This document shows, one piece after another, positions 1,968-61,942 of a DNA stretch of 64,000 nt. The translations under genes were made by a program, and so were the position numbers. How positions within the stretch are numbered: the stretch's first letter is position 1; every line of letters begins with the position of its first letter. A model generated the notes under the pieces. The model saw only the letters and a list, made by a program, of their open reading frames with translations. It had not been told where the DNA came from and made no database searches. This DNA is from a virus, in the IMG/VR virus record IMGVR_UViG_3300030098_005028, positions 1-64,000 of that record; one strand, written 5' to 3'.

Positions 1968-2598
1968 AACCTCTAGTCCCCCATACGTTATCTATAAAAC
2001 CATATTTCACCGCCTCTTCCGAATCCATGTACCATTCCTGCTGATTCCTTAGCTTTTTATCCATATATTTAATAATATAACTATCGGTCTTATCTTTGAA
2101 GAAATCGCCCCTCTTACATCTGTCACAATAAATATTCAACATCTTCTTATTGAGCTTTTCATTCCAGTCAATAGCTGATTTTGCCGATATAGAGTTAGTA
2201 TCTATAGAAAAACTCCCATAGTGAACCATAAATTCCACATTGGGAGTCAAAGACCTTATATCCCCAGCCTGCATTATGATAGTCCCCATAGAAGCCACTA
2301 TTCCATAACCTATGATAGTAACTGGGGATCTAGTTAGCTTAATAGCATCATATATAGCCATTCCATCATTCCAATTCCCTCCTATAGAACTTAAATGAAT
2401 TACAATAGGCTCATTGCTTATATGATCGAGAAGCTGTAGATTTTTTATCGTTTTTACTGCGACGTGAAAATCTAACCCACTCTCTTCTTCTGCCACACTA
2501 TGAGAGTGTATATAGAGTTCTCTAGAGTTTAAGTTCAGAGAATACTCATGTATGTGTTGTAGGAGTTCTTTGTTTGTCGGCTTGTTTACTCTGGGCAT
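1960..2598 (-). CDS. ClpP-like ATP-independent serine protease
   Basis: This 212-residue protein belongs to the ClpP/crotonase-fold protease family. It has the substrate-strand motif SIGGNWNDGMAIYDAI, the nucleophile segment YGIVASMGTIIMQAG matching the ASMG serine of ClpP, a histidine in MVHYGSF and a C-terminal SEEAVKYGFIDNV stretch like the ClpP AxEYGLID motif. The catalytic Ser and His are therefore present; the Asp is less certain. Length is typical of ClpP. No Clp ATPase is encoded nearby, so it might pair with a host ATPase or act alone, for example in head maturation or host-protein turnover. ATG at 2598 follows a strong GGGAGGAAGAAA ribosome site. The gene overlaps the upstream HTH gene by 53 nt. 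Confidence 0.85.
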   Translation of the reverse strand: MPRVNKPTNKELLQHIHEYSLNLNSRELYIHSHSVAEEESGLDFHVAVKTIKNLQLLDHISNEPIVIHLSSIGGNWNDGMAIYDAIKLTRSPVTIIGYGIVASMGTIIMQAGDIRSLTPNVEFMVHYGSFSIDTNSISAKSAIDWNEKLNKKMLNIYCDRCKRGDFFKDKTDSYIIKYMDKKLRNQQEWYMDSEEAVKYGFIDNVWGTRGYE

Positions 2599-2818
2599 TT
2601 TCTTCCTCCCTCTCCTTATTATTACACCGTGAAAGGGCGCATATTCCCCTTCCGGGCTTTTTAGAGATACCCATTTTCTGCCGTTGTTTCCTCCATGACT
2701 GCACAGATATATATCTTCCGGTTATTTTTGATAGTTGTGCTGCTCCTTGTGCATCAGTTAGAATGGCAGCGTTGTCCCTAATAAATTGACGTTCATTTTC
2801 GTTCCAAATGTTGTTCAT
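2546..2818 (-). CDS. Small HTH-like DNA-binding protein
   Basis: This 90-residue basic protein has an N-terminal helical region (NERQFIRDNAAILTDAQGAA followed by LSKITGRYISVQSWRKQRQ) laid out like the small phage helix-turn-helix proteins in which the recognition helix is followed by a Lys/Arg/Gly-rich tail. The C-terminal 30 residues are low complexity and hydrophilic. The start is the ATG at 2816-2818; no good Shine-Dalgarno is visible. It is the first gene of the leftward operon and is divergent from the rightward genes. The 38-bp gap between them could hold both promoters, and a TATAAT hexamer lies on the minus strand at about 2838-2843. It may regulate this divergent region; that is inference. 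Confidence 0.55.
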   Translation of the reverse strand: MNNIWNENERQFIRDNAAILTDAQGAAQLSKITGRYISVQSWRKQRQKMGISKKPGRGICALSRCNNKEREEENAQSKQADKQRTPTTHT

Positions 2819-2828
2819 TTTATTGTTT

Positions 2829-2846
2829 TGGTGTTATTATATACTG
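2829..2846 (+). promoter_or_regulatory. Putative phage promoter, TGGTGT box 1 (variant)
   Basis: TGGTGTTATTATATAC lies 20 nt before the ATG at 2857. It matches the TGGTGTAT box found before five other genes in this window, with one base difference or shift (TGGTGT-TATTAT). It sits in the divergent gap between the leftward HTH gene and the rightward sigma-factor block, so it would drive the sigma-like gene itself. This is the least perfect of the six copies. Confidence 0.5.
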
Positions 2847-2856: not shown

Positions 2857-3036
2857 ATGCGTATTTCATCTAAGTTATATACAACCGAAGCTTCAGAAAG
2901 CAAGAAGAGAGTAGAAGAAGAGCTAAGGGTTCCTGACCCTAGTCCTGAAGAGGCCTTAGCATTTTTGGAGGAAGATGAAGATACCAAAGGGAATGAACGA
3001 GGAGCAGGTGCTGACAGCGATAGAGAATGTAGTTAA
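2857..3036 (+). CDS. Small acidic protein upstream of sigma-like factor
   Basis: This short reading frame of 59 residues begins MRISSKLYTTEASESKK and is very acidic in its second half. It is supported by a near-perfect ribosome site (TGGAGGTG, five bases before the ATG) directly downstream of a TGGTGT box. It overlaps the sigma-like gene by 62 nt in another frame, and the GGAGG used by that next gene lies inside it. I do not recognise the product. It may be a leader or coupling peptide for the sigma-like gene, or a small regulator of it. Confidence 0.6.
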   Translation: MRISSKLYTTEASESKKRVEEELRVPDPSPEEALAFLEEDEDTKGNERGAGADSDRECS

Positions 3037-3604
3037 TGCTCTCGCTAGAAACTTCCGCTTTGGGTATTTCGATACCGACGACATGAAACAACAGGGGCGA
3101 ATGTATGCTCTTGAAGGTATTCCTAAATACAATCCTGAAGTCGGCCCTTTGGAAAATTTTCTTCGTACTCATATCAGAAATCGTTTTATCAACTTAAAAC
3201 GAAACAAGCTTACTCGATATCAACCCCCTTGCGTTGATTGTCCTTTCTATGACCCTGAATGTAAGGTCAGTCAGAACAAATGCTCTGAGTTCAAAAATAA
3301 GGAAGACTGCCAAAAATATTCTAATTGGCAAAAGAGAAACATTGCCAAAAAAAGTCTCGCTCAACCTTTAGATATATCTAACATAAATGATGAGCGTGAA
3401 AAGAATATGCGTAGGGAACCAAAAGTTTATGATTTCGTAACAAAAAAAGAGTTACTGGAGATAATAGATAAAGAGCTACCTATTTCTTACAGGCGTGATT
3501 ATAGACGTATGGTTGAGGGTGTAAATATACCCAAGCAAAGGAAGCAGAAACTCATAGACAAACTAAAGGAAATTATTAAGGAAAATTATCCTGATGAGTG
3601 GTAA
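2975..3604 (+). CDS. Short sigma-70-like transcription factor (late sigma candidate)
   Basis: This 209-residue protein has a recognisable sigma region 2 at about residues 11-80: a helical N-terminus, FDTDDMKQQGRMYALEGI resembling the core-binding DDLxQEGxxGLxxAI motif, then KYNPEVGPLENFLRTHIRNR resembling the promoter-melting FDPxxGxxFxTYAxxxIRN segment. It is followed by an unusual cysteine cluster (C86, C89, C96, C103, C112), probably a zinc-binding insert. A C-terminal helical segment (about 156-205) could be a reduced region 4. Length and domain content resemble phage late sigma factors such as T4 gp55, which also depend mainly on region 2. The ATG at 2975 follows GGAGG by three bases; a second ATG at codon 7 is an alternative. 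It probably directs host RNA polymerase to the TGGTGTAT boxes of this genome. Confidence 0.65.
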   Translation: MKIPKGMNEEQVLTAIENVVNALARNFRFGYFDTDDMKQQGRMYALEGIPKYNPEVGPLENFLRTHIRNRFINLKRNKLTRYQPPCVDCPFYDPECKVSQNKCSEFKNKEDCQKYSNWQKRNIAKKSLAQPLDISNINDEREKNMRREPKVYDFVTKKELLEIIDKELPISYRRDYRRMVEGVNIPKQRKQKLIDKLKEIIKENYPDEW

Positions 3605-4800: not shown

Positions 4801-5818
4801 TTGGGGAAGGAGAATAAAAAAGAATCATCATCTTTATTCAACAGTTGAAGGAATCGAATTACCCAAAAAAATATCTCTAATAGATACCCATATGAATAAT
4901 GCTTGGGAATTCCATAGAAGTGGATGGGGTCATTGTCTTTATGGTCTAAGAAAATTGCATAAAGAAGACGGTGTTCTTTTAGATGATTTCTTTGAGCAGA
5001 GCCACTCTGTTTTCTATGCAGATAATGTTAAAGAAAAAAAAATACCTTTCATGGAAGACTGGGTGGGCTTCTTTCACAACCCACCAAATTCTCCTAGATG
5101 GCATAACTACGCTCATACTCCACAGGTCGTATTCTCCAGACCAGAAGCTAAGGAAAGCCTAAAGAGATGCAAAGGAATGTTTGTCTTTACGGATTATTTA
5201 AAAGATTGGTTTGACCGAAATCTAGATATCCCCTGTGAAGTTCTTTGTCATCCAACAGAAATGCCAAAAGTAAAGTTTGACTTTGATAAGTTTTCCGCAA
5301 ATAACAATAAAACCATTATCCAGCTAGGTCATCATCTCAGGAGGCTTCTCTCTATACAAAGGCTAAAAACAGACTTTCATAAAATTTGGTTTATGTCTTG
5401 TGATTGGGCGAAACAACTAAAGGTTATTGAGTGTCAATCTCATGACTACCCAACGATATCTCTTAATTGCGGTAATTATGAAGAGAGAGAATGGATAGAT
5501 AATGATGCATACGATATGATTCTTTCACAAAATATAGCATTTATGCACCTTTATGATTCAAGTGTTAATAATGCTGTAATCGAATGTATTGTTAGAGAAA
5601 CACCTGTTCTTATCAACAAGATACCACCCATTGTTGAATACCTTGGAAAAGACTACCCATTCTACTTTGAAAATTTAGAAGAAGCATCAAAAAAATGCCA
5701 AGACATGGCTCTTATAAAAGAGACACACGAATATCTTAATGAAATGGACAAGCAAAAGTTTTCTTTGTCTTACTTTTTGAATTCTCTCACAAACACAGAG
5801 ATATACAAATCATTATGA
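4775..5818 (+). CDS. GT-B fold glycosyltransferase
   Basis: This 347-residue protein has the layout of a GT-B glycosyltransferase of the GT4-like type. A Rossmann-like N-terminal half ends near FSRPEAKESLKRCKGMFVFT. A nucleotide-sugar-binding C-terminal half contains KTIIQLGHHLRRL and, at about residues 267-293, a segment (NNAVIECIVRETPVLINK followed by IPPIVEYLG) like the donor-binding E-x7-E region. The start is GTG at 4775 with AAGGAAGAG just upstream, inside the HNH gene. The stop overlaps the next gene by 4 nt (ATGA), so it is co-translated with the radical-SAM genes. Acceptor and sugar are unknown. The adjacent gmd suggests that it could use a GDP-sugar. Confidence 0.7.
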   Translation: MGRKITKSDWGRRIKKNHHLYSTVEGIELPKKISLIDTHMNNAWEFHRSGWGHCLYGLRKLHKEDGVLLDDFFEQSHSVFYADNVKEKKIPFMEDWVGFFHNPPNSPRWHNYAHTPQVVFSRPEAKESLKRCKGMFVFTDYLKDWFDRNLDIPCEVLCHPTEMPKVKFDFDKFSANNNKTIIQLGHHLRRLLSIQRLKTDFHKIWFMSCDWAKQLKVIECQSHDYPTISLNCGNYEEREWIDNDAYDMILSQNIAFMHLYDSSVNNAVIECIVRETPVLINKIPPIVEYLGKDYPFYFENLEEASKKCQDMALIKETHEYLNEMDKQKFSLSYFLNSLTNTEIYKSL

Positions 5819-6858
5819 GTAAGTTTTGTTCAAAACCTTTCGAGTGGTTTGAAGTGCATCCTGATGGAAACGTGTCTATGTGTTGTTACACATGGCTGCC
5901 AGCATACATTGGTCAGATAGGAGTGGATGAAGGAATAAATGATGTATTTAATTCTGACATATCAGAAGAAATAAGAAAAAGCATATTAGACGGAAGCTTT
6001 CGTTACTGTGATCACGATTTATGTCCTCTTATTCAGGCAGGCGATCTGCCAGAGGTTGAGGAGTTAGAAGGAAATAGTAAGCGTATTGTTGAAGAGCAGA
6101 TCACTACTGGTTTGGAGCCTACCTTTTACAACCTTTGTTATGATGAATCTTGTAATCTAAGTTGCCCAAGTTGTAGGGTAGATAAAATCCTTTTTTCTAA
6201 AGGCCCTAGATACAGACAGAGAAAAGTTATACAAGACAGAATAATAAAAGATCTATTCGAGAAATATCATGAAAGAGATTGCACGGTAAGTATAACAGGT
6301 TCTGGAGATCCTTTTGGCTCTAAACTTTTTAGAGACTTACTATTTTCTGTTGATGGGAAGAATTTCCCCAACATGAAAATTAACTTACAAACGAATGGCG
6401 TAATGTTTACGGAAAAATACTGGAGCAAAATGCATAGAATACAGAACAATATTGAAACCGTTCTAATTTCTTTTGATGCAGCTTCTCCTGCCTCATATTC
6501 TTATACGAGGAGAGATGGTAATTGGGATCGTCTACAAGACAACATGAAGTTTATATGCCAGCTTCGCAAAGATAATAAGATAAAAGATCTTCGTTGTGAC
6601 TTTGTAGTTCAACAAAAAAATTATCACGAGATACCTTCTTTTGTAGACATGTGCTTATCTTATGATTTTGTTGATGAAATATATTTTTCGCAGATAGTTA
6701 ACTGGGGTACATATTCGGAAGAAGAGTTCAAAGAACATGCTATACATCAAGAAGATCATCCAGAATATGATGACTTTATTTCTATTATGCAAGATACAAG
6801 GTTATCTCATAGCAAAGTAAATCTTGGCAATCTTTCTTCTTTTAGGAAGAAGACATAG
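5815..6858 (+). CDS. Radical SAM enzyme with N-terminal SPASM-like cysteine region (copy 1)
   Basis: The radical SAM core is shown by the CxxxCxxC cluster in CNLSCPSC (C113, C117, C120), the GSGDPF segment for SAM contact and TNGV later. Before the core there is a SPASM/twitch-like auxiliary cluster region with C5, C23/C24, C65 and C70 (CSKPFEWFEVHPDGNVSMCC at the N-terminus). In most SPASM enzymes this region follows the core, so the order here is inverted. Such enzymes use SAM and auxiliary iron-sulfur clusters to modify peptides, sugars or small molecules; the substrate is not predictable. The ATG at 5815 overlaps the upstream stop by 4 nt. It is a paralogue of the next gene and lacks that gene's C-terminal extension. 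Confidence 0.8.
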   Translation: MSKFCSKPFEWFEVHPDGNVSMCCYTWLPAYIGQIGVDEGINDVFNSDISEEIRKSILDGSFRYCDHDLCPLIQAGDLPEVEELEGNSKRIVEEQITTGLEPTFYNLCYDESCNLSCPSCRVDKILFSKGPRYRQRKVIQDRIIKDLFEKYHERDCTVSITGSGDPFGSKLFRDLLFSVDGKNFPNMKINLQTNGVMFTEKYWSKMHRIQNNIETVLISFDAASPASYSYTRRDGNWDRLQDNMKFICQLRKDNKIKDLRCDFVVQQKNYHEIPSFVDMCLSYDFVDEIYFSQIVNWGTYSEEEFKEHAIHQEDHPEYDDFISIMQDTRLSHSKVNLGNLSSFRKKT

Positions 6859-6870
6859 AGTTGTATAGGT

Positions 6871-8235
6871 ATGAAATCTAACTCAGACCCAAACCCCGAC
6901 AAGTATTACTGCACTAGACCATTTGAATGGTTTGCTGTGCTAGATAATGGCGATGTGTCTCCGTGCTGCCCGCCTTGGATAGACGGATACAGGATTGGCA
7001 ACCTGTACAAACAGTCTGTAGACGAGGTGTGGAACGGAGAGAAAGCACAAGCGTTTAGGGAGTCAATATTAGATGGGTCTTTTAAATACTGCAACGAAAT
7101 GTCCTGCCCACATCTCCAATCCAAGTCTGAGTCCGTATTTACACTTCAGCAACTAGAGAATGGCGACCGTCACACGGTCACTCAAGACATTAAGAATAAA
7201 AAAACGGTTCTAGACCACGGCCCCCTAATTATTAACTGCGAATACGACAGGTCATGCAACCTGTCATGCCCATCTTGCCGCAGAGATTTAATCATAGTGT
7301 CTGGGGAGCAGCGTGACAAAATACTAGCTCTACAGGACAAACTAATTGACGGAGCATTCTCTAATTCCCAACGTATTACAATTACTGGTTCTGGAGATGC
7401 CTTTGCGAGTCCCGTGTTCAGGAAGTTATTACAGAACCTCAAGAAAGAGCAAGCCCCTGATTTGGGACATATTCTCTTATTAACTAACGGTTTGCTTGTT
7501 AATAAATACTGGCACACTTTAAGCGACTACGCTAAAGAAAACATTAAGACAATCTCAGTGTCGGTAGACGCAGCGTGTCCAGAAACGTATGCTATTAACC
7601 GAAGAGGAGGCGATTGGGAGCAGCTACAGGATAATCTTGCATTTATCAAAAGCCTCAAGGTATCTTCGGGTATAGAACATTTTTGTATTAGTATGGTAGT
7701 TCAGGAGAACAACTTCACTCAAATGAAAGACTTTGTACTAATGGGAGAGTTTTACGGAGTTAACTTCGTGCAGTTCCAAATTATTGAACCTGATTTCATC
7801 AGAGATTTAGGATATGGAGACTATTTAAGTGAGTGGATTGGTAAGGCGGTTCACGAAAAAACTCACCCTCGACATCAAGAGTTTTTAGATGTCATTCAAG
7901 ATGAGTTTTTTACCGCTTATATAACGGAAGACACGTCGGATCATGTAAATGTGAGCATGGGGCCGTTACACAACCTCATACAAGGTGTAGATATTTCTCA
8001 GTACGAGACATTACTGAACGAATCTCAAGAACACGAAAAGAATAAAGAGAAAAAGGATGTGTGGTTTGATGCAACTATTTATTATGTTGATTGGAAGTCT
8101 ATCAAAAATATAAATGGCAGTGATTTTGTTAGAATAGAAACAGGACAAGTTCTTTTCTGGAATGGAAACGAGTGGGAGATTTGTGACGAAGACAGCACAG
8201 ATTTCGCTGAATTTATAAAGAAAGAAGAAAAATGA
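6871..8235 (+). CDS. Radical SAM enzyme with N-terminal SPASM-like region and C-terminal extension (copy 2)
   Basis: This 454-residue protein is a paralogue of the preceding enzyme with the same order. N-terminal auxiliary cysteines (C14, C32, C33, C74, C79) lie around a SPASM-like GDVSPCCPPW and IGNLYKQSVDEVWNG signature. The radical SAM cluster CNLSCPSC follows (C129, C133, C136), with a GSGDAF motif and a TNGL strand. About 70 extra residues at the C-terminus (VWFDATIYYVDW onward) form a separate beta-rich domain absent from copy 1. The ATG at 6871 lies 12 nt after the previous stop with only a weak AGG. The codon choice and composition of the first half look somewhat more GC-rich than copy 1. 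The pair may act sequentially or as a heterodimer; that is inference. Confidence 0.8.
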   Translation: MKSNSDPNPDKYYCTRPFEWFAVLDNGDVSPCCPPWIDGYRIGNLYKQSVDEVWNGEKAQAFRESILDGSFKYCNEMSCPHLQSKSESVFTLQQLENGDRHTVTQDIKNKKTVLDHGPLIINCEYDRSCNLSCPSCRRDLIIVSGEQRDKILALQDKLIDGAFSNSQRITITGSGDAFASPVFRKLLQNLKKEQAPDLGHILLLTNGLLVNKYWHTLSDYAKENIKTISVSVDAACPETYAINRRGGDWEQLQDNLAFIKSLKVSSGIEHFCISMVVQENNFTQMKDFVLMGEFYGVNFVQFQIIEPDFIRDLGYGDYLSEWIGKAVHEKTHPRHQEFLDVIQDEFFTAYITEDTSDHVNVSMGPLHNLIQGVDISQYETLLNESQEHEKNKEKKDVWFDATIYYVDWKSIKNINGSDFVRIETGQVLFWNGNEWEICDEDSTDFAEFIKKEEK

Positions 8236-12633: not shown

Positions 12634-12650
12634 TGGTGTATAATTAGAAT
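12634..12650 (+). promoter_or_regulatory. Putative phage promoter, TGGTGTAT box 2
   Basis: TGGTGTATAATTAGAAT begins one base after the terL stop codon and 42 nt before the portal start. It carries the exact TGGTGTAT octamer and the A/T-rich tail seen in the other copies. No shared hexamer is found at the -35 distance. Confidence 0.65.
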
Positions 12651-14852: not shown

Positions 14853-14869
14853 TGGTGTATATTTTTGTA
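14853..14869 (+). promoter_or_regulatory. Putative phage promoter, TGGTGTAT box 3
   Basis: TGGTGTATATTTTTGTA lies 25 nt before the ATG of the protease-scaffold gene and just after the portal stop. It has the exact octamer and the same A/T-rich downstream part. It would start the head-gene transcript that ends at the terminator at 17978-18012. Confidence 0.65.
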
Positions 14870-18021: not shown

Positions 18022-18040
18022 TGGTGTATTTTTATATATA
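18022..18040 (+). promoter_or_regulatory. Putative phage promoter, TGGTGTAT box 4
   Basis: TGGTGTATTTTTATATATA starts 10 nt after the T-tract of the capsid terminator and 37 nt before the connector gene ATG. A terminator followed directly by this box strongly supports promoter function. Confidence 0.7.
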
Positions 18041-22996: not shown

Positions 22997-23013
22997 TGGT
23001 GTATTATTCATTA
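22997..23013 (+). promoter_or_regulatory. Putative phage promoter, TGGTGTAT box 5
   Basis: TGGTGTATTATTCATTA lies 58 nt before the tail-tube ATG, the longest leader of the six copies. Box 5 plus the terminator at 24090-24121 makes the tail-tube gene a single-gene transcript, as expected for an abundant product. Confidence 0.65.
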
Positions 23014-42720: not shown

Positions 42721-42738
42721 TGGTGTATATACACATAG
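42721..42738 (+). promoter_or_regulatory. Putative phage promoter, TGGTGTAT box 6
   Basis: TGGTGTATATACACATAG starts directly after the previous stop codon and 25 nt before the ATG of the last rightward gene, which has its own GGAGG ribosome site. It gives that gene an independent transcript. Confidence 0.65.
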
Positions 42739-43881: not shown

Positions 43882-44777
43882 CTATTTTCTCTCCAATTAG
43901 CATCATATGTACCAACACCAACAGGCTTTTCTGACTTGCCTTGCTGTATCTTATTAAGATGTTGAATCATCTCAGATGCTTTCGTTTTACTAACTTCTTT
44001 AATGTTTTTATATTGCTTTTCTCCACTATTAACATAGTCAAGAACATTAACATCACATCGTTCAGAAACTACATCCAAAAGGGATATCTGTTCTTCGTCA
44101 ATTTGGTCATCTGGTTTCCATATGTCACCATAGTCACTGATAACTCCATCATCAGCTAATTCCTCAGCGGCGATAACTGTTCTCAAACGAAGTATCTTCC
44201 TCAACGCCCTTGCTTCTGCTCTGGTTGTTGCTGTAGCTGTCGCATGCATATGATACGGCTCTTGTGTATTGTATTTATTTACATCTGCCGCATCTTCCTC
44301 GTGAATGATTTGCTGATACAATATATGGTTAGGCATATTATTCATAACAGTTACTATACAACAAACAGTTGAAGTACCATAGTTATTTTTACTTGGTGCT
44401 TGAATCACATTAACTTTCCTACCAACTATAGGCCCAATTAGAAGCTCAGTGACTCTCCTAAGACCATCACAAGTTGGGTGTCCATTATCCATCTCATCAT
44501 CTTGGAAATGAGTCATTACATAATCTGACCATTCAGGAGAGTCTATGTTAGGAATGACAACTGGCTCTTCTTCTGCCACATTCTGAATTTCTACATCTTC
44601 GTCTTTATTTTCGCCAACAATATCGTCTTCCATTTCTGCTTGGTCAAAGACTTCGCTTTGAGACTCTGCCAAAGCTAGTTTAGCTTTAAGAATATTCTTC
44701 TTTACATTAACTTCTTCATCCGTAAATCCATGTTCTTCTTTTAGTTTCTTTCTAAGTTCTGCAACAGTCATACTCAT
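43878..44777 (-). CDS. Putative recombination protein (SSAP-like), SAP-like N-terminus
   Basis: The 299-residue protein starts with a short SAP-like helical segment (MTVAELRKKLKEEHGFTDEE) and an acidic linker. The core then has a conserved-looking CDGLRRVTELLIG and ATATATTRAEARALRKILRL followed by VIAAEELADD. The TRAEARALRK pattern is characteristic of phage single-strand annealing proteins of the Rad52/Sak-like groups, so a role in homologous recombination is suggested but not proved. The start is ATG 44777 with GAGG in the end of the previous gene. Neighbours (homing-type nuclease, ssDNA binding) agree. Confidence 0.45.
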   Translation of the reverse strand: MSMTVAELRKKLKEEHGFTDEEVNVKKNILKAKLALAESQSEVFDQAEMEDDIVGENKDEDVEIQNVAEEEPVVIPNIDSPEWSDYVMTHFQDDEMDNGHPTCDGLRRVTELLIGPIVGRKVNVIQAPSKNNYGTSTVCCIVTVMNNMPNHILYQQIIHEEDAADVNKYNTQEPYHMHATATATTRAEARALRKILRLRTVIAAEELADDGVISDYGDIWKPDDQIDEEQISLLDVVSERCDVNVLDYVNSGEKQYKNIKEVSKTKASEMIQHLNKIQQGKSEKPVGVGTYDANWRENR

Positions 44778-44778
44778 C

Positions 44779-45555
44779 TTATACCTCTACCTCAATAAGT
44801 CTCTTATCTTCTTCAGGAAATTCTTTTTGTATATCAGATAACACGCCTAATACCTGAGAGAGCAGGTCTCTTTTATGTTTATTAGATACATGTTTGCTGA
44901 TATGTCGAACTCTAACAATTACAAAACCATTAGTTGTTAGTAATCCAGACTTCTGTGCGTCTGCTCTCATATTTCTTTCTAGGCTCTCTTCTCCCCATAT
45001 AGGAAAGAAGTGAGATGGGCCATCAACTTCAATTGCTGTTTTTAGTTCTGGCAGGAATAGGTCTACTTCTAGTCTTTCATTCATTATCAATCCTTTACGA
45101 TGAAATTGGACTTGGAATCCATTCTCACGCAGGCTATTGACAAGAAACTTTTCTAATCTAGAACCTTCCTTCGTGGTTCTTCTAACTGCCTCAGCAGCGG
45201 CTGATCTCAATTTGTCTTTCTGTTCTTGAGGCATATTCTCCCATTGTCTCTTGGCATTATCAACCCTCTTCTGATATTCCTCGTCACTCATGTTGCTCCA
45301 AGTATCAGATAGGGTTTCAGAAATCTTTATTTTGACTTCTTCTGATCTTGATTGCCCTTTAGTAGGATGTTTATGTCTTCCACTTTTGAGAGCCGTCCTT
45401 TGTGCTTGACTCTTATTCCTTGGTTGAATCCCAAAGTTAATAGCTGCTCTTCTTATTTTGTTTGAGTATGTCCCTAGTTCGGCAGCAATATCACGGAAGC
45501 TTCTTTTCTTTTGTATGTATTCTTCGATAAGATATTCTTTTGTTAAAGCTGGCAT
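44779..45555 (-). CDS. Homing-type endonuclease with HTH, NUMOD3-like and PD-(D/E)XK/DUF559-like domain
   Basis: This 258-residue protein combines an N-terminal HTH (SFRDIAAELGTYSNKIRRAA), a NUMOD3-like segment (SEEVKIKISETLSDTW) and a C-terminal nuclease part with LEVDLFLPELKTAIEVDG, the ExD...ExD catalytic pattern of the Vsr/DUF559-type fold, followed by a helix with SLERNMRADAQKSGLL. Modular nucleases of this kind spread as homing endonucleases in phages. GAGG precedes the ATG. It borders the sugar gene cluster to its right and the recombination genes to its left. Confidence 0.75.
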   Translation of the reverse strand: MPALTKEYLIEEYIQKKRSFRDIAAELGTYSNKIRRAAINFGIQPRNKSQAQRTALKSGRHKHPTKGQSRSEEVKIKISETLSDTWSNMSDEEYQKRVDNAKRQWENMPQEQKDKLRSAAAEAVRRTTKEGSRLEKFLVNSLRENGFQVQFHRKGLIMNERLEVDLFLPELKTAIEVDGPSHFFPIWGEESLERNMRADAQKSGLLTTNGFVIVRVRHISKHVSNKHKRDLLSQVLGVLSDIQKEFPEEDKRLIEVEV

Positions 45556-45556
45556 T

Positions 45557-46018
45557 TTATTCCTCGCATATTTTTAATATTGTATTTATGTCAAAATTTT
45601 CTAGAATATGATCTACTTTTCTGTTAAAAGAATTTTCTATCACAGAAGAATGATTATGACATCTAGATACTATTTTTATTTTATTATTAGAAAACAAATC
45701 AAGAACTGGATTATAGTTATGTGGCATACGCAGCCATTCTAAGTCCCAGACATAGTATATTTTTGTATTCGCTGAAGGATAAGATGCCATCTTCTTTGCT
45801 GTTGATAAAGAGGTAGCAATCATTATTCCTTCTTGACCCCAAGCCTCTGCCATTTGCATAGTTGGAAATCTAGCAAACATACAGTCTTTCTCTACATTTT
45901 CACAATAAACGGTTGGGTCTACGTTCCCTTTTCCAGCAACTTTGTTGAAATTATTTATCAAATAGTATGATAGCTGACTTGACCCAAGACTTCTTACTAA
46001 TGCTCCTATTTTTATCAT
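45557..46018 (-). CDS. Conserved hypothetical protein, GT-like
   Basis: This 153-residue protein begins MIKIGALVRSLGSSQLSYYL and has KIYYVWDLEWLRMPHNYNP in the middle. The N-terminal half looks Rossmann-like, as in the donor half of a GT-B enzyme, but it is too short to be a full one. It has a 4-nt overlap with the aminotransferase gene and belongs to the sugar cluster by position. It may be a nucleotide-sugar-binding partner or a reduced glycosyltransferase. Confidence 0.4.
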   Translation of the reverse strand: MIKIGALVRSLGSSQLSYYLINNFNKVAGKGNVDPTVYCENVEKDCMFARFPTMQMAEAWGQEGIMIATSLSTAKKMASYPSANTKIYYVWDLEWLRMPHNYNPVLDLFSNNKIKIVSRCHNHSSVIENSFNRKVDHILENFDINTILKICEE

Positions 46019-46953
46019 TTACTATATCCATTAACAAAATTGACAACTTTCTGAATTTCATTCTTAGTTAGTCTCTCATGATAGGGAAGACTCACTGTGC
46101 TATCAGACTCACTTATAGACTTCCGATAATCTCTGTTATATGGCATATGAATAGATATGTTTTTATAGAATGGCTTTTCATGACAATGTGTATAATGTAT
46201 TCCACATATTATGCCAGATTTTTTTGCTTGTTGAATAAAGTCTTTATTGCTTTTTACTCTTATTCTATATAGATGTCTACTTACATTTTGATAGCCAAAC
46301 TCTTGGTTGTATGTGGCTCTTATGTTATCAAGTATTTCATACTTTTCATTTAGCTTATTTAAGTTCTCATTTGCTATATATGCAGATAAAGAATTCCAGT
46401 GCATCTTATGCCCAGCAGAGCTATGAACTCTTTCCCAATTATTTTCAGAGTAACTCATGCCATTCAGCGTTTTTTCTCTGTAACTTTCTATTGCTTGTTT
46501 ATTATCAGAAACGATTATTCCTCCGTCACAACCGCCTACCGGCTTAGTTGGATAGAAGCTAAATATCATTTCTGCGTTTGGTTTTCCAAGGTCTCTAAAT
46601 TGATTCCTCGTAACTTCTTGGGCAGAATCAATCAATACCTTTTTGCCATCATCAATAAGAGTATATGCACTTCCTACCCAATCAACATCATCATAAAAAA
46701 TATATTTTGAGCCTGCCATTTCAAGAGCGTTAGGAACAACAGGAGGTATGCAACTAGGCACTGAAATTATTTGGTCGTAATCTTTTGTTGCTAGATATAT
46801 CAAGCTAGACGCACTGTTTGCAGAACAAGCATATTTAGCCCCGACATATTCCGCAAATTTTGTTTCAAATTCATTTACTATGTCGCCATGAAGCCAGTTT
46901 CCTAGATCACTGGTGTTTAGCTCATATTGGTTAATGTGAAACAAGTTTATCAT
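46015..46953 (-). CDS. DegT/DnrJ/EryC1-type sugar aminotransferase
   Basis: This 312-residue protein is a PLP-dependent aminotransferase that converts 3- or 4-keto nucleotide sugars to amino sugars. It shows the ANSASSLIYLA phosphate-binding segment, VLIDSAQEV with the PLP-ring Asp, and SFYPTKPVGGCDGG with the Schiff-base Lys. It is shorter than typical family members (about 365-390), missing mostly the C-terminal part. Together with the FdtA-like isomerase it would give a dTDP-3-amino-3,6-dideoxyhexose. It overlaps the methyltransferase gene by 23 nt. Confidence 0.8.
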   Translation of the reverse strand: MINLFHINQYELNTSDLGNWLHGDIVNEFETKFAEYVGAKYACSANSASSLIYLATKDYDQIISVPSCIPPVVPNALEMAGSKYIFYDDVDWVGSAYTLIDDGKKVLIDSAQEVTRNQFRDLGKPNAEMIFSFYPTKPVGGCDGGIIVSDNKQAIESYREKTLNGMSYSENNWERVHSSAGHKMHWNSLSAYIANENLNKLNEKYEILDNIRATYNQEFGYQNVSRHLYRIRVKSNKDFIQQAKKSGIICGIHYTHCHEKPFYKNISIHMPYNRDYRKSISESDSTVSLPYHERLTKNEIQKVVNFVNGYSK

Positions 46954-48712
46954 TTTGGTATCTCATTGTTTCCGTTGTTGTAAAGATTGTTGTGTTATCC
47001 ATATCCTGTATAAAGTCATATGGAATTCTAGAAACCATACTGTATCCTTCTAAAAAAGAATCAATGTCATCTGGATTCATAAACCAGAAAGGTCTAAATT
47101 TTTTATTATCAAAATTTTCTAGACTTGCACATGTTTTGGTATCTGTACAAGTCATATCTTCTATAATTATTTCTTTAGCAGAAGATTCTGTTATATCTTT
47201 TAGTATTTTTGAAGGTTCTTTTTCATATTGTACTTTTGATTTTATGTATACGACATCAGACTCCTGTAAATCAAACGTATACTCAACGTCTTCATATAGG
47301 GCATCCAATAGAGATGAAACCTCATCTTTTTCTTCTACAATGATTGAGTACCTCTTATGTTGGCCTTCTTCTATTGATGAAATTAGTCCATGATATTTTT
47401 TCTTGAAGTGTGGCAGGTCAATGCACACATCTTCTTCTTTCTGCCTAACTTCTGGCTGTTCTGTTTTTATACTAATTACTTGATCAAAAGAGTCATACAT
47501 CCCTTTATATAGTCTGCTTGATTTCTGTCTTATTATTTTTGGGGATGGAATGTGAGTTATAAACTTCCCTCCTCGGTTGGCAAAGTCAACTTCTTTGGCG
47601 AATATTTCTTCGGTAAAATTCCAAGCTCCAAGAAAGGCATAATCTACACTATCATCGAAGTGAGATGGGTCTAGTATTGGAATATGCATTCCCGGTGAAA
47701 ATTTGTTTTGCTTTACCTCTGTATTATCTACAATGTAGTCGATTATTTCTGGGCCTATATTGCAATAGTTAAATATACATGTTGATTTTGATGTTGCTCC
47801 GTAGCTAACAATCTTGCTGCCGTTCTTCTTTATAGCCGTCAACATTTCTACTAGTTCATCTCTAGAACTCTGTACATTTCTGGCAAAGGCCTGATAGGTC
47901 TCCAGATTGTCTATTCCCATAGACTGTTCTTCTCTCAAAGAGGCTTCTACACATGGATCGACCTTTACATGAGAGTTTTCTTTGGTCTTTGCAAATACTC
48001 TATTAGAACCTCCATGAACACTGGTTCTTTGTACATCAAATATCTCCATACCTGCATTCTGAAGAAGATTATTCAAAGATGTTAAAGAGAAGAGGTGTGC
48101 GTGTTCATCATATATCTGGTCATAAGAATTTCTTATAAGCATGTCTACAACACAAGGGTCTTCAAAGATAAACACACCATTAGTATCATCCAGAACGTGT
48201 CTAACCGCATGAAATGCCTCTTGTATGTCTGGAATATGACACATACAGTTTGCAGAGTAAACTAAATCCACAAAATAAAGATCTTTGATCTTCTTTGCAG
48301 ATTCCATGTTCCAGAACACATTGAATGTGTCGTAGCCCATTTCTCTGGTCATCTCAGCAAAATTTCCACACGGCTCTACTGATATCGCTTTATTGGTATC
48401 AAAGTGTTTCAAAAATACTCCGTCATTGCTTCCTATTTCTAGTATTCTGCGATATGGATTAGACTCAATCTCTTTAGCAACAGAAGCAAAGTGATCCCTC
48501 ATTGTCTGCGAACCTGAAGAATGATACATGTAGCTATCATTAAACATTAGTGGTGGATCTACAAATTCCATCAGAGAAACTAGTTTAGTCTCATCATCAA
48601 ATCCTACTTTCATGTCAAAGAAAAATTCTTCTTCATTGCTTTCTAGTTGTTCTTTTGTTAGGAAACCATTTGCTATTGGATGTCTTCCTAAGTCTAAAAA
48701 TTCGGTCTGCAT
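46931..48712 (-). CDS. C-methyltransferase (NovU/TylC3-like) with extra C-terminal domain
   Basis: This 593-residue protein has a class I SAM methyltransferase centre (RILEIGSNDGVFLKHFD) and a C-terminal Rossmann part (VSYGATSKSTCIFNYCNIG) in the order of sugar C-methyltransferases. The usual N-terminal zinc-binding Cys pairs are absent, as the protein starts directly at the FLDLGRHPIANGF segment. About 200 extra residues at the C-terminus form a separate acidic domain that I do not recognise. It probably acts on a dTDP-keto-deoxysugar made by neighbouring RmlA/B. It overlaps the HAD gene by 19 nt. Confidence 0.75.
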   Translation of the reverse strand: MQTEFLDLGRHPIANGFLTKEQLESNEEEFFFDMKVGFDDETKLVSLMEFVDPPLMFNDSYMYHSSGSQTMRDHFASVAKEIESNPYRRILEIGSNDGVFLKHFDTNKAISVEPCGNFAEMTREMGYDTFNVFWNMESAKKIKDLYFVDLVYSANCMCHIPDIQEAFHAVRHVLDDTNGVFIFEDPCVVDMLIRNSYDQIYDEHAHLFSLTSLNNLLQNAGMEIFDVQRTSVHGGSNRVFAKTKENSHVKVDPCVEASLREEQSMGIDNLETYQAFARNVQSSRDELVEMLTAIKKNGSKIVSYGATSKSTCIFNYCNIGPEIIDYIVDNTEVKQNKFSPGMHIPILDPSHFDDSVDYAFLGAWNFTEEIFAKEVDFANRGGKFITHIPSPKIIRQKSSRLYKGMYDSFDQVISIKTEQPEVRQKEEDVCIDLPHFKKKYHGLISSIEEGQHKRYSIIVEEKDEVSSLLDALYEDVEYTFDLQESDVVYIKSKVQYEKEPSKILKDITESSAKEIIIEDMTCTDTKTCASLENFDNKKFRPFWFMNPDDIDSFLEGYSMVSRIPYDFIQDMDNTTIFTTTETMRYQNDKLVSH

Positions 48713-49038
48713 CTCAACTCCTTGTGCGGTTCTATCTTTTCTAAATCTAATGCCTCAAAAGAGTTGAAGCATCTGTCGCAAATCATTACATCGTATGCGG
48801 GTTTTTTGAATCTGAGTTCATGGTATTTGACTCCATATTTTTCAAATTGAGATTTCGTAAGTTCAGTCCAATCTTCACCGCTTACACTTCCTCTAGCTGT
48901 CCAATAAACTATGTGATGCCCTTCATCATATAATTTGTTTGCTTTTTCAATATTTTTAATTATTGGCTTTGCTTTTTTATAGTTACAATTTTTACTTTGT
49001 GTAAATATGGTATTATCTATATCTATGTATATTTTCAT
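48694..49038 (-). CDS. Small HAD-superfamily phosphatase
   Basis: This 114-residue minimal HAD protein has DIDNTIF (motif I, D6xD8), YWTARGSV (motif II) and YDVMICDRC (motif IV). It lacks a cap domain, typical of small sugar-phosphate or nucleotide phosphatases. In this cluster it could dephosphorylate a 3-deoxy-ulosonate 8-phosphate made by the KdsA-like enzyme, since no other phosphatase is visible. This is inference. It shares 4 nt with the next gene (ATGA). Confidence 0.7.
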   Translation of the reverse strand: MKIYIDIDNTIFTQSKNCNYKKAKPIIKNIEKANKLYDEGHHIVYWTARGSVSGEDWTELTKSQFEKYGVKYHELRFKKPAYDVMICDRCFNSFEALDLEKIEPHKELRCRPNF

Positions 49039-49688
49039 CGTGTCATGTAATGAGACCTCAAAACTAGTCTCTCATTTCCTTCTCTAAGAACTCCTCCAAA
49101 GTGAAATATATCGCTATCAAATATCAATAAATCACCAGCTTTTCCGGTCATCGGTGTCGAATCTTTTTTAGATATATCAAGATGTGGATAGTCTATTTCT
49201 ATTCTGTTTTTTACTTGACTATAATCTGATGAGTTAGACCAAGCTTTTTTTCTTAGCTGTGCGCCTAGATATCTACTTCCTTTTACGACACTAAAAGGGC
49301 CACAGTCCTCATCACAATCAGTTAGGTAAAGAAAAAATTTAAGAGTATGAAATCTATCAAAATGGAGATATCCGTTTCTAGCAAGTTCTTCATTAGCTAT
49401 ATAATCATGAGTCGCTTGGATTGCGTGTAAGTAGTTATCACCTAAGTACTCTTGTTTTGTTGACTTTATCAATTCATTATCGAATACTTTTCTTACTTCG
49501 CTTGAAGGAGGAGCCAGATTTTCCAATGGTATGAAGTTGAGTGCTTTTCCAAATTGATAGCCTCCTTCTGAAAAATTTTCTATTTTTTCCAACACTTCTT
49601 GCTTTATTGTTTCTATATCTTCTAAAGGAACAAACCCTTCTAGTTTGACTATGCCTTCTTTCAGTATTTCTCTAGGTAGATCTTGCAT
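49035..49688 (-). CDS. Phytanoyl-CoA dioxygenase (PhyH)-like 2-oxoglutarate oxygenase
   Basis: This 217-residue protein has the Fe(II)/2OG jelly-roll marks: HFDRF with the HxD metal pair, a later IFHFGGVLREG histidine, and RLVLRSH with the 2OG-binding Arg. Such enzymes hydroxylate lipids or small molecules and are common in marine phage genomes near sugar genes. In this setting it may modify a sugar or lipid precursor. The substrate is unknown. It overlaps rmlB by 17 nt. Confidence 0.8.
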   Translation of the reverse strand: MQDLPREILKEGIVKLEGFVPLEDIETIKQEVLEKIENFSEGGYQFGKALNFIPLENLAPPSSEVRKVFDNELIKSTKQEYLGDNYLHAIQATHDYIANEELARNGYLHFDRFHTLKFFLYLTDCDEDCGPFSVVKGSRYLGAQLRKKAWSNSSDYSQVKNRIEIDYPHLDISKKDSTPMTGKAGDLLIFDSDIFHFGGVLREGNERLVLRSHYMTR

Positions 49689-50607
49689 AATGTTTCACCG
49701 TCTTTTCTATATCTGAATGAAAATCGCCTTCATATTCAAAGCCTTCTGCTCTTAAAAATTGAGAACTTATAGAGTACCTTTGGTCATGACCAAGCCTATC
49801 TTCTACGAATTCAATATGCTCATCAGCTTCTTTGTTCATAACATCACAAATGAGCTTTATCATTTCAATATTTTGTAGCTCAATTCCAGAGGATATATTG
49901 TATATATTGTTTTTTAGGCTATCTCTATTTTTTATTATGAATCCTATTGCTGAGGCAGTTTCATACACAGAAGTCCATTCTCTTATTTGTTTTCCGTCTC
50001 CATAAAGAGGAACCTTCTTCCCTTCAGATATCCTAGTCACAGATTTAGGAAAAAGTTTCTCAGTATGTTGACGTGGGCCAAAATTATTAGATGGCCTAAC
50101 AATAATACATTCAACACCATATGTATTCTCATAGGCTTTTATCATCATATCTGCCGAGGCTTTTGTTGCAGCATATGGATTTTTTGGGTTCAACCTTGCA
50201 TATTCATGGAAAGAACCTTCTGCAATATCACCATATACTTCATCAGTAGAAACATGCAATAATTTGACTGAATCTTCTTTGCAAACTTCTAACAATGATT
50301 TAACACCGAGAACATTAGACCAAAGAAAATCGTCGCAAGATTCAATTGATCTATCAACGTGCGTGTGAGCAGCTAGATTTATAATCCATTGAATATCGTG
50401 ATTTTTACATATTGAGGATATATCCTGTTGTTGATTGATGTCTATTTTGTAGCCCGCTATCGCATTAGGCTCAAAATCAATCGTATTAGCTGGATTAGCG
50501 GCATATGTAAACGAGTCTATGGCCACAACACCGAAGCCGTTATTTGTAAACCAATCTGCTACATGGCTACCAATGAAACCGGCAGAACCTGTAATTGCTA
50601 CATTCAT
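49672..50607 (-). CDS. rfbB: dTDP-glucose 4,6-dehydratase
   Basis: The 311-residue SDR enzyme converts dTDP-D-glucose to dTDP-4-keto-6-deoxyglucose. It shows GSAGFIGSH near the N-terminus, HVSTDEVYGD with the catalytic T121-D122-E123 triad, and the YAATK motif (Y145, K149). It is paired with rfbA directly upstream, with a 1-nt overlap. It provides the keto sugar for the FdtA-like isomerase, the aminotransferase and the methyltransferase. Confidence 0.92.
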   Translation of the reverse strand: MNVAITGSAGFIGSHVADWFTNNGFGVVAIDSFTYAANPANTIDFEPNAIAGYKIDINQQQDISSICKNHDIQWIINLAAHTHVDRSIESCDDFLWSNVLGVKSLLEVCKEDSVKLLHVSTDEVYGDIAEGSFHEYARLNPKNPYAATKASADMMIKAYENTYGVECIIVRPSNNFGPRQHTEKLFPKSVTRISEGKKVPLYGDGKQIREWTSVYETASAIGFIIKNRDSLKNNIYNISSGIELQNIEMIKLICDVMNKEADEHIEFVEDRLGHDQRYSISSQFLRAEGFEYEGDFHSDIEKTVKHYARST

Positions 50608-51473
50608 TAGACTATTCCGTAAAGATAATTACTGTATTCGTTCTTGCCTAGATTGCCCGCAAGATGTAAGAGTTGCCTTTTGCTGATGTAGCCTAGATTA
50701 TATGCTATCTCTTCCAAGCAGGCAATCTTCAAACCCTGTCTTTTTTCGATTGTCTGTATAAAGTTTGATGCCTCTAATAGAGAATCATGAGAACCAGCGT
50801 CGAACCAAGCATAACCTCGCCCAAATATCTCAAGCATCAACTTCTTGCTTTTCAAGTACACATTATTGACATCGGTTATTTCAAGTTCGCCTCTTGAAGA
50901 AGGACTTATGGTTTTTGCAATTTTTACTACATCATTACTATACATATATAGCCCGACAGCCGCACAATTTGATTTTGGATTTTCAGGCTTTTCCTCGATG
51001 CTTACGACACGTCTATTTCTGTTATATTCTATGACACCATATTCTCTTGCGTCATTAACATGATAACCAAATATTACAGATTTGTTATTTTCAGTTATTT
51101 CTCTGCTAGTTCTAAGAATAGTTGGTAAAGCATCTCCATAAAATATATTATCGCCAAGTATCAAACAAACAGAGTCATCGCCAATAAATTCTTCGGCTAT
51201 TATAAAGCATTCAGCTATTCCTTTTGGCGATTCTTGAATGTTATATTCAATATTTATTCCAAGATGAGAACCGTCTTCAAAAAGAGACTTATATAAATTA
51301 ATCTGGTCAGGCCTTGTAATAACCATGATATCTTTTATTCCTGCCAGCATTAATGTTGACATTGGATAATATATCATCGGCTTATTATATATAGTAAGTA
51401 GCTGCTTCGTTATTACATTAGTTGCTGGATAAAGTCTTGAGCCTGATCCACCAGAAAGCACTATTCCCTTCAT
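50607..51473 (-). CDS. rfbA: Glucose-1-phosphate thymidylyltransferase
   Basis: The 288-residue nucleotidyltransferase joins dTTP and glucose-1-phosphate. Seen are the SGGSGSRLYP loop, TKQLL, the VCLILGDNIFYG metal site and the GYAWFDAGSHDSL C-terminal motif, all typical of the RmlA family. Length is normal. The ATG at 51473 shares 4 nt with the upstream gene's stop. It starts the dTDP-sugar branch of the cluster. Confidence 0.93.
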   Translation of the reverse strand: MKGIVLSGGSGSRLYPATNVITKQLLTIYNKPMIYYPMSTLMLAGIKDIMVITRPDQINLYKSLFEDGSHLGINIEYNIQESPKGIAECFIIAEEFIGDDSVCLILGDNIFYGDALPTILRTSREITENNKSVIFGYHVNDAREYGVIEYNRNRRVVSIEEKPENPKSNCAAVGLYMYSNDVVKIAKTISPSSRGELEITDVNNVYLKSKKLMLEIFGRGYAWFDAGSHDSLLEASNFIQTIEKRQGLKIACLEEIAYNLGYISKRQLLHLAGNLGKNEYSNYLYGIV

Positions 51474-52543
51474 GACATTGTTCTCAAAAAACCTTGTAAA
51501 TTATCTATTTCTTGCTCACAAAGAGAGTAAGTATCTTCTAAAAAGTAGTACTGTTCTGGCAAATCTATATTAAAAGGGTTTAGTGAACCCACTATTGTTT
51601 GTAAATCTATTAGCCTTGAATCATCACAATACTTTTTAGATTCATCTATCTTACTGACAAGAAGGTCAACATCATCGACTCTGGGGGTGTACATTTCTAT
51701 ATAGCATTTTCTAAAATGATCCCTGCATACATCAAAATCCTCGCCATCACACATAGACATCGCAAATGTGATGCCATCTGTCATTTTAGCAAAGTTCTCA
51801 GGCCATTCACCCTGTCTAATCCATGTATTTTGATCTGGAAAATGTATGTGTCTTTCTCCTCCTTCCACCCTTGGTGTACCATGCTCATGAATAATGTGAC
51901 AGAAAGAATTGTCTCTCATACCGTCTCCCCAAATTATGCTTAGAAACCCTATCATTTGATCGCAGAATCTAAGGTTAGATGGGCTAAGATACCATAATAT
52001 GCTCCAATTCATTTGTGCCGATTGAGTTCTTATAACATTATGCCAATTGCTGTGAAATCTTGTTGCTTGACTGTGAATTCTTTCTGCCGATGTGTCTCCT
52101 GTGATTGACTCAGGAAATTCGGTATACATAGGAGATCTTTCTTCGATTCCTCTCTCTCCAATATGCACCCCTGTCTTTCCCCCTCTAGCCGAACAGAAAT
52201 CTCTATTTTTGTTTAAGAAATCAATACAAGACTTTATTCCATTTATTGTAAAAAAATCATCATTGTCTATAACCATACATAGGGGCGTTTCGACTGCTAG
52301 TAATGATCTAGCGACTTTTCCATAGAAATCCTGAACTGTTTTGTCATATGGAAATCTAAGATATTCAATTTTCAATCCATCATAATAGTTTGATTCTATG
52401 CTTTTTTGTATTCTTGAGTCTATTTCTCCCCCATCAGCTATGACCAAAGGGAAAGGGCATTCTATTTCATACAAATAAGCCAAGAGACGGCGAGAATAGA
52501 ACTCTCTGCCTTTGATTGGTAATACTAGTGTTAGATCATTCAT
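51470..52543 (-). CDS. Glycosyltransferase (TIGR00180-type GT-A)
   Basis: This 357-residue protein starts with LTLVLPIKGREFYSRRLLAY and has MVIDNDDFF, which carries the DxD-like metal-binding site of GT-A enzymes. The layout resembles the TIGR00180 family of glycosyltransferases found in phage and surface-polysaccharide loci. It has a long C-terminal part without known motifs. It overlaps the RmlD-like gene by 8 nt. Confidence 0.7.
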   Translation of the reverse strand: MNDLTLVLPIKGREFYSRRLLAYLYEIECPFPLVIADGGEIDSRIQKSIESNYYDGLKIEYLRFPYDKTVQDFYGKVARSLLAVETPLCMVIDNDDFFTINGIKSCIDFLNKNRDFCSARGGKTGVHIGERGIEERSPMYTEFPESITGDTSAERIHSQATRFHSNWHNVIRTQSAQMNWSILWYLSPSNLRFCDQMIGFLSIIWGDGMRDNSFCHIIHEHGTPRVEGGERHIHFPDQNTWIRQGEWPENFAKMTDGITFAMSMCDGEDFDVCRDHFRKCYIEMYTPRVDDVDLLVSKIDESKKYCDDSRLIDLQTIVGSLNPFNIDLPEQYYFLEDTYSLCEQEIDNLQGFLRTMS

Positions 52544-53246
52544 TTAATTCTCTTTTCATTTTATCTAGATTCATAGAGGTATCTTTTGGCATTATTTCAC
52601 TAATATCTTCTAGATATATTTTTCCAACATCTGGATTATCTTTTTTTGCGAATTCATATATGCTAGACGATTTTCCTCCTATGTTTATTGTTCCTTTCTT
52701 GTCTAAAAGCATAAGTATTATGTCTGCTACGTCATCATCATATATTAGACTTTTTTTAGAATCTGCTATCGCTGATTTATGAGGAAATGGCTTAGAACAC
52801 ATCGCTACTCTTAGGATGAGATGATTGTCGTGCATTCTTACAGCACATTCGCCTCCAAGTTTAGACCAAGCATACTTATTTATTGGTAATATCGGGTCTT
52901 CTTCTTTGTAGTCTCCAGTCAATCCGGGATAAACAAAGTCAGTTGATATATAAACAAGCTTTATCCCCATCATTATGCAGGTCGCAGCGACATGAGATGT
53001 TCCAACAATATTAGTATGCAGGCTTTCCAAAGGGTTATTATCATGAATATTCATTGGCCGTGTCAATGCGGCGGTATGTATGATTACATCTGGCTTTACA
53101 GCACCAACCCAAAATGTAATGTCTGACATTGATTTGATATTCATCTCCCCTTTTGGAGGAGCGACTATGTCATGATTACGACTACGGTTTGACTGAATTA
53201 TTTTTTTTGCCAGCTTTCCTTCGCCGCCGGTAATTAATATCTTCAT
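52536..53246 (-). CDS. RmlD-like dTDP-4-dehydrorhamnose reductase / NAD-dependent sugar reductase
   Basis: This 236-residue protein has the GGEGKLAKKI dinucleotide-binding start, YISTDFVYPG, and the YAWSKLGGE motif (Tyr and Lys of the SDR active site). It is shorter than RmlD (about 290). It could finish a dTDP-deoxysugar by reducing the 4-keto group. The start is set to ATG at 53246, since the TTG two codons upstream is unlikely. It overlaps the neighbouring epimerase gene by 65 nt. Confidence 0.75.
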   Translation of the reverse strand: MKILITGGEGKLAKKIIQSNRSRNHDIVAPPKGEMNIKSMSDITFWVGAVKPDVIIHTAALTRPMNIHDNNPLESLHTNIVGTSHVAATCIMMGIKLVYISTDFVYPGLTGDYKEEDPILPINKYAWSKLGGECAVRMHDNHLILRVAMCSKPFPHKSAIADSKKSLIYDDDVADIILMLLDKKGTINIGGKSSSIYEFAKKDNPDVGKIYLEDISEIMPKDTSMNLDKMKRELNE

Positions 53247-54144
53247 ACCCAAGTAACTCCAGAGTTTCAGCTATTGCATTTTCAACTTTTCCGCAAGGTC
53301 GCCATTCAGTTAACTCTAATAGCTTTTTATTACTGACCTTATAACTATGTTGATTTAATAATGGGGTATCAACAAATTCTACATCAAGATGACTGACATA
53401 CTTCTTTATTTCTTCTACAATTTCTGAAAGCTTGTGATTGTCTGTCAAGACATTGTATGTCTGATTATATACAAGCTCTTCGTCTAGTATATGTCTCATT
53501 AATGAACATAGATCTGACAGGCACAAATATGGCCTATAATGATGATAATTTTGTTTCCAAACACTAAGAGGCTTGTTAAAAGCTGCTTGATAACAGAATT
53601 TATTTATTGCAGTATGGAATCTCATTCCATTGCTAATTCCGTATATAGTACCAAGCCTTAAAATTATATATTTAGTTTCTTGTAGGTTTTCATTAATCCA
53701 GTCTTCTACCCATACCTTCGTCTCAGCGTAAGGGCTTTGTGCATTTACATATTTTTTATCTTCATTTACTAATTTATCTGAAGTTCCGTAGACACTGGTC
53801 GAAGATGGAAATATTACTGTCTTTACTTTTGAATGTTCTACCTTAGTTAAAAATTTACAAGTCTGTTCTACATTAACTTTCCAAACCCATTTTGGATCTC
53901 TAAAGCTAGATGCAGCATCAGTTATAGCTGCCAAATGAATAACAGCATCAAATTTATCTAAAAAAGATTTGTCTAAATCAATAAATGAATGGTCAACAAA
54001 CCTAATATTTTTTTCTAGATTGAATAATGAGCAGTACCTCTGAGTACTTAAATTGTCACATACAGTTAGATCGTAATCAGATAAAAACCTAATCAAGCCC
54101 GATCCTATATGTCCAAGACCGCCTGTTATTAAGATTCTTTCCAT
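53182..54144 (-). CDS. NAD-dependent epimerase/dehydratase (extended SDR)
   Basis: This 320-residue extended SDR has GGLGHIGSGLIRF, FPSSTSVYGTS with the active-site Ser/Thr, and SPYAETK with the Tyr-x3-Lys. Substrate-binding loops are not typical of one known enzyme, so the exact nucleotide sugar is unknown. A basic C-terminus (YRRRRKAGKKN) is unusual and is encoded in the overlap with the next gene. It is probably a dTDP- or UDP-sugar epimerase. Confidence 0.75.
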   Translation of the reverse strand: MERILITGGLGHIGSGLIRFLSDYDLTVCDNLSTQRYCSLFNLEKNIRFVDHSFIDLDKSFLDKFDAVIHLAAITDAASSFRDPKWVWKVNVEQTCKFLTKVEHSKVKTVIFPSSTSVYGTSDKLVNEDKKYVNAQSPYAETKVWVEDWINENLQETKYIILRLGTIYGISNGMRFHTAINKFCYQAAFNKPLSVWKQNYHHYRPYLCLSDLCSLMRHILDEELVYNQTYNVLTDNHKLSEIVEEIKKYVSHLDVEFVDTPLLNQHSYKVSNKKLLELTEWRPCGKVENAIAETLELLGYEDINYRRRRKAGKKNNSVKP

Positions 54145-61100: not shown

Positions 61101-61132
61101 TTTATGTAAAACCTAATTTTTATCTTAATATG

Positions 61133-61918: not shown

Positions 61919-61942
61919 AGGATAATCCCTTACTTGATAGCA

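Follow-up and report, generated by a model that had tools for sequence, protein, structure and literature searches.

Late transcription under a phage-encoded sigma factor is described in phage T4, whose gp55 contacts a −10-like element in a sequence-specific manner (PMC7892883), and in phages phiEco32 and 7-11, whose late sigma factor reads the consensus TAATGTATA before virion genes, some other genes being transcribed from host promoters (PMC4331800). In bacteria, the CorE-like sigma factors carry a CXC motif in the linker between sigma2 and sigma4 that is required for activity (PMC8999054). The window analyzed here is a stretch of 64,000 nucleotides belonging to a 143,058-bp virus record, in which the first-pass annotation had pointed out a short protein with sigma region 2 and an internal cysteine cluster as the likely reader of a repeated box. 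Our analysis makes it highly probable that the phage uses this protein as a sigma factor devoted to late genes, acting on a single −10-like box, and that the cysteine knuckle, present in one clade, is unneeded for box choice. The features discussed below are collected in Table 1.

Table 1. Positions of the sigma operon features and late boxes within the window.
Feature	Positions	Strand	Evidence
Possible host promoter of the sigma operon, TTGTTC-N18-TGn-TATTAT	2811..2840	+	sequence; promoters of relatives
Small ORF, 59 aa, overlapping the start of the sigma gene	2857..3036	+	read from sequence
Sigma region-2 protein, 209 aa, proposed late sigma factor	2975..3604	+	Pfam, PHROG, relatives
Sigma region 2, residues 20-77, with most of the promoter-binding helix (59-79)	3032..3205	+	Pfam limits, model helices
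Zinc-knuckle-like insert, residues 82-112 (C86, C89, C96, C103, C112)	3218..3310	+	clade-specific, ligands conserved
C-terminal three-helix part, residues 150-204, possible reduced region 4	3422..3586	+	model helices
Conserved downstream partner, N-terminal helix-turn-helix and long helices	3594..4454	+	homologues, weak HTH matches
Late box before the 12741 gene (portal-like)	12634..12641	+	present at 12/23 orthologues
Late box before the 14886 gene (protease/scaffold-like)	14853..14860	+	16/24 orthologues; 68/79 loci
Late box before the gene starting MAWTTDMVTILRYIID (connector-like)	18022..18029	+	boxed similar genes in relatives
Late box before the 23063 gene (tail-tube-like)	22997..23004	+	16/19 orthologues; 72/80 loci
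Late box before the 42754 gene (fibre-like, GSGLGFYG motif)	42721..42728	+	13/15 orthologues

The earlier assignment to sigma region 2 was confirmed by profile searches and by structure prediction. Searched against sigma families, the window protein matched Pfam Sigma70_r2 above the curated gathering cut-off (E=6.2e-6; 26.4 bits, cut-off 24), PHROG 1740 ('RNA polymerase sigma factor') concurred, and 43 of 45 aligned relatives matched Sigma70_r2 as well (E up to 0.1); within the whole record it is the sole region-2 match. The AlphaFold model has a mean pLDDT of 85.6, with residues 1-70 above 90, and every Foldseek match in the PDB at a probability >0.9 is a sigma factor. The nearest folds are sigma region 2, such as 9m9e_F (probability 0.99, rmsd 2.9 across 69 columns, E=0.27); the Foldseek E-values are weak, 0.27 at best, as expected for a small helical domain. 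Five residues of the promoter-binding helix (N61, F62, N69, R70 and R76) are invariant or nearly so in the 45 relatives. Region 4 was found by Pfam neither in the window protein nor among the families matched by its relatives, in agreement with the previous suggestion that it is at most reduced, and the C-terminal part of the model holds three helices (150-167, 170-180 and 187-204) with an LPxxxRxDY...PKxR motif that is conserved in the alignment of relatives. ECF (group 4) factors are recognized by regions 2 and 4 together, and the window protein, with only these three helices at its C-terminus, does not fit this group.

The relatives of this protein were found almost entirely in viral contigs. 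A tblastn search of 50,697 deposited phage records with the window protein returned zero matches, and searches with three of its relatives returned nothing or one weak partial match; the protease and tube proteins of the group were likewise matchless in deposited phage records. In the viral-contig collection, one scan yielded at least 172 relatives confirmed by tblastn, and another, directed at those with the cysteines, yielded 79; most of the relatives begin with MKIPKGM or similar. One scan of bacterial genomes gave four matches only, three in MAG contigs and one a decayed copy on the chromosome of Limnoglobus roseus, a planctomycete isolate, near a remnant of the protease of these phages (L468:8001-12007); this copy is a host lead for part of the phage lineage.

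The box TGGTGTAT occurs nine times in the window, compared to 1.75 expected (sd 1.46), and none of 100 shuffles reached this number. Six of the 12 copies in the whole record are non-coding and, according to the gene calls, are followed on the same strand by a gene start no more than 150 bp away, and a further copy at 104241(-) was judged by eye to be promoter-placed. An unbiased search for 8-mers enriched upstream of genes led to TGGTGTAT or TTGTGTAT(A) in this record and in related ones, and at promoter-like positions the box stood clearly above a reversed-letter control. Word counts and orthologue tests were relied upon to find the box, the EM motif search having drifted to weak, wide motifs. 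In 72 aligned sites, which were chosen by the box so that only positions outside it count as evidence, AAT follows directly after the seed to make TATAAT; position +15 is T, and +16/17 are purines. The best match to a TTGACA element in the same sites averages 2.36/6 as against 2.56/6 in shuffled sequence, and TGGTGTAT(AAT) is a single −10-like element without a −35. Some far relatives have variants of the box, such as CGGTGTAA in G035, and three family records (G006, G029 and G032) showed no clear box. We found no earlier report of the TGGTGTAT box in the open-access literature.

The box is tied to virion genes across most of the family. It lies within 150 bp upstream of 57 of 81 portal, protease, tube and fibre orthologues (counts by gene in Table 1) compared to 7 of 124 control genes (Fisher p=1.6e-23), the controls being major capsid (2/21), terminase (1/26), tape measure (1/15), GMD (2/26), DnaB (0/12), RecA (0/13), NrdA (1/7) and rIIA (0/4). 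The genes tested were those boxed in the window phage, and p=4.7e-21 when this phage is left out; the gene names rest on position and inspection by eye, except for terminase, GMD and rIIA. The connector gene was left out of these counts, and connector-like genes are boxed in G001, G002, G005, G016, G020, G031 and G035. In addition, at loci picked without reference to the sigma gene, the box was present before 72 of 80 tube genes and 68 of 79 protease genes, and the reversed patterns still matched at a low rate (15/80 and 7/79, respectively). The link between box and protein proposed in the first-pass annotation thus extends to other phages, which carry the box or a close variant before orthologous late genes. 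Among 21 long records picked by their tube protein, 13 contain the sigma gene, 12-36 kb upstream of the tube gene; the other eight have about 2-16 kb of contig upstream of that gene, so that the contig would stop short of the expected place of the sigma gene or barely reach it. We came across no phage with either box or sigma in which the other is provably missing. The lineage could have inherited both from its ancestor, with neither reading the other. We favor the sigma protein as the reader, and the arrangement of promoters discussed below bears on this.

The five cysteines (C86, C89, C96, C103 and C112) were found at exactly the positions first given for them, directly after the promoter-binding helix. 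In the model, the third helix stops at residue 79 and the next long helix begins at residue 113, with all five cysteines between them; the C-terminal 97 residues are without any. In a tree of the family, the members with this insert form a clade of 34 of the 80 non-redundant rows (support 100/97), and the other clade is without it. Of 41 members examined in the insert clade, 39 retain the Cys/His ligands, and equivalents of C89 and of C112 are present in 39 each; the first ligand is C86, or is displaced by one in a C-x-C form, and the third is either Cys or His (PPCKSCHDSNKCSDGNYCEKY vs PPCQLCSAGGRHEDGNHCAKF). The clade also keeps a PP...W..RN frame, and one of its sub-clades has a C-x-C-x2-C form. 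C96 is common to only five aligned relatives, so four ligands rather than five define the site. Two members of the clade, L221 and L247, have lost the insert, and L241, from the insert-less clade, has a different set of cysteines. Exchange of Cys and His at one position is typical of zinc ligands and of structural zinc sites. The proposal of a zinc insert is therefore strengthened by four conserved ligands, one of which switches between Cys and His, with C96 dropped from the defining set; the region is a clade-specific, zinc-knuckle-like insert, and we infer zinc binding from the pattern of its ligands. Our search of the open-access literature turned up no previous description of a zinc insert in any phage sigma factor.

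Instead of being structural, the insert might sense metal or redox state and so gate sigma activity, in the manner of CorE-type ECF sigmas. The CXC motif needed for activity in the linker of CorE-like factors (PMC8999054) has a counterpart in the C-x-C-x2-C sub-clade. However, the C-terminal part of the window sigma forms no cysteine-rich domain, and it is not obvious why a late-gene switch should need to respond to metal. The Cys/His switch at the third ligand also speaks for a structural site, and we regard a sensor as unlikely.

A second class of promoters was found in the same record. TTGACA-N16-18-TATAAT-like promoters lie upstream of 21 genes compared to 4 in shuffled sequence, and all of them are at 115-142 kb, well away from the virion genes with boxes, which lie at 12-43 kb. 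This region is presumably early. Within it (115320-141652 of this record, G000), about 20 small genes have near-perfect, unusually uniform TTGACA-N16-TATAAT promoters with a mostly 16-bp spacer. Since a −10-like box without a −35 stands before the virion genes, and TTGACA/TATAAT promoters are kept apart in the early region, the window sigma is the likely reader of the late promoters, box recognition being deduced from these patterns. The box might instead be an extended −10 promoter for the host housekeeping sigma, with the phage protein otherwise employed or a modulator. Extended −10 promoters work without a −35, and the box does combine a TATAAT-like −10 with a TG in the part that precedes it, but its TG is one base off the classical TGn-TATAAT register and consensus TTGACA-N16-TATAAT promoters are present in the same record in the early region only. 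Furthermore, GTGTA is kept where the flanks of relatives differ, as in the G035 variant, and the sigma gene accompanies the box in the long records whose contig should include the sigma locus. Use of the box by the host sigma is consequently improbable.

The insert, by comparison, appears to have no part in the choice of box. The insert-less relatives G008-G014 use the same TGGTGTATAAT, and L221, a case of secondary loss, still has TGGTGTATAAT before its protease gene, indicating that the insert is unneeded for box choice; a determining role for it was rejected on this comparison. Thus, of the reader originally proposed, the region-2 protein stands as the probable reader and the cysteine cluster as a part of it does not. 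A zinc finger that reads part of the box, as might be supposed of an insert that adjoins the promoter-binding helix and that has kept its ligands and its PP...W..RN frame throughout the clade, is largely refuted by the same relatives and has hardly any likelihood left.

The sigma operon itself was said to be preceded by a box variant that would allow positive feedback. A variant, TGGTGTTA, is indeed present at 2829-2836, within the putative operon promoter, but it is one base longer than the box and could just as well be taken for an extended −10 promoter of sigma70. In the nearest relatives, TTGACT-N17/18-TATAAT lies upstream of the sigma gene or operon, and because of this sigma70 promoter positive feedback was rejected for the clade of the window. 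Three insert-less relatives (L034, L038 and L067) have TGGTGTAT 248-269 bp upstream of the sigma gene, and feedback may operate there. A homologue of the downstream partner follows the sigma gene in L009-L014, and a similar ORF occupies this place in L469-L471. The partner protein gave weak HTH and 'D5-like regulator' matches, and a fold search with its long-helix model gave no informative match; it could be a terminase small subunit or a coactivator. Upstream of the operon, a small divergent ORF at 2546-2818 (-) has an HTH-like start and a pattern that by eye resembles that of the partner. Near the operon, at 5815-8235, are two adjoining radical-SAM/SPASM-like proteins, recognized by cysteine motifs alone.

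Taken as a dedicated late sigma, the protein would act as follows. Host sigma70 would transcribe the early genes, from their TTGACA/TATAAT promoters, and the sigma operon; the phage sigma would then bind the host RNA polymerase core through region 2 and bring it to T[G/T]GTGTATAAT before the virion genes, where late transcription would start about 7 nt downstream of the TATAAT of the box. The knuckle, placed between region 2 and the C-terminal helices, would most likely stabilize the linker or anchor a small factor, and may touch RNA polymerase or upstream DNA at the site that regions 3 and 4 occupy in a full sigma. It is conceivable, if rather doubtful, that the zinc module after the promoter-binding helix replaces the missing regions 3 and 4 by anchoring the sigma to RNA polymerase or upstream DNA; if true, this would be a new way of building a sigma factor, in widespread uncultured phages that have a late-promoter code of their own.

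Several other genes were noted in the course of this work. A GDP-mannose dehydratase-like gene lies at 8232 of the window, and from 44000-64000 on to about 70000 there is, by eye, a long sugar-nucleotide/glycosyltransferase island with RmlA-, RmlB-, KdsA- and NeuA/KdsB-like ORFs; together they make a large glycan pathway for a phage. Inspection by eye of L015:7717-11915 (record 71717-75915, minus) revealed two ORFs (651 and 543 aa) like DNA polymerase III alpha, with a DnaQ-like exonuclease ORF of 225 aa between them. A rIIA-like protein (PHROG 612, E=1e-110) is encoded at L017:6514-8733 (record 110514-112733), in a record without a T4-type clamp match.

Overall, these results predict a late-transcription switch for a large group of uncultured large phages that numbers hundreds of contigs in one collection, and they supply a late-promoter code that can be read in these genomes and used to mark their late genes. 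The coexistence of insert-bearing and insert-less members, natural loss included, makes the role of a metal-bound sigma element testable.

Compared to known systems, the window sigma resembles SPO1 gp28, a middle sigma, in being a phage sigma for staged transcription, with no meaningful profile match between the two (probability 2.6%). With CorE and CorE2 (former ECF44) it shares linker cysteines after sigma region 2; these bacterial metal-response factors have CXC alone in the linker and a C-terminal cysteine-rich domain, whereas the window sigma has a four-ligand knuckle in the linker and a cysteine-free C-terminal part. Phages phiEco32 and 7-11 likewise encode a sigma for virion genes with a similar promoter layout, and their consensus shares TGTATA with the window box T[G/T]GTGTATA, the difference being AA where the window box has GG after the first T. 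The phiEco32 sigma is annotated as an ECF factor, unlike the window sigma, and the two proteins fail to align as members of one family (hhalign probability 4% with a single phiEco32 sequence). T4 gp55, to which the first-pass annotation had likened the protein, is also short, mostly sigma region 2, and directed to a −10-like element. Compared via a built alignment, a single-sequence comparison being too weak, gp55 matched the family with an hhalign probability of 84% (E 7.5e-6) across 49 columns, a match that may reflect region-2 likeness in general, and nine of 45 relatives weakly match the PHROG family 'late sigma transcription factor'. However, gp55 works with the sliding clamp and gp33 and has another box, and the window sigma adds a zinc-like insert. 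The tails of this family are short and acidic (e.g., YEEG), with no recognizable clamp-binding motif of the LDFLYE kind in the alignments. Neither gp33 nor the gp45 clamp was matched (PF16805, PF02916 and PF00712) in the 143-kb record, which may be incomplete, and the protein is therefore not simply a gp55. What holds of the analogy is a single-element promoter that would be read by region 2, and the comparison with gp55 is, on this evidence, one of working principle.
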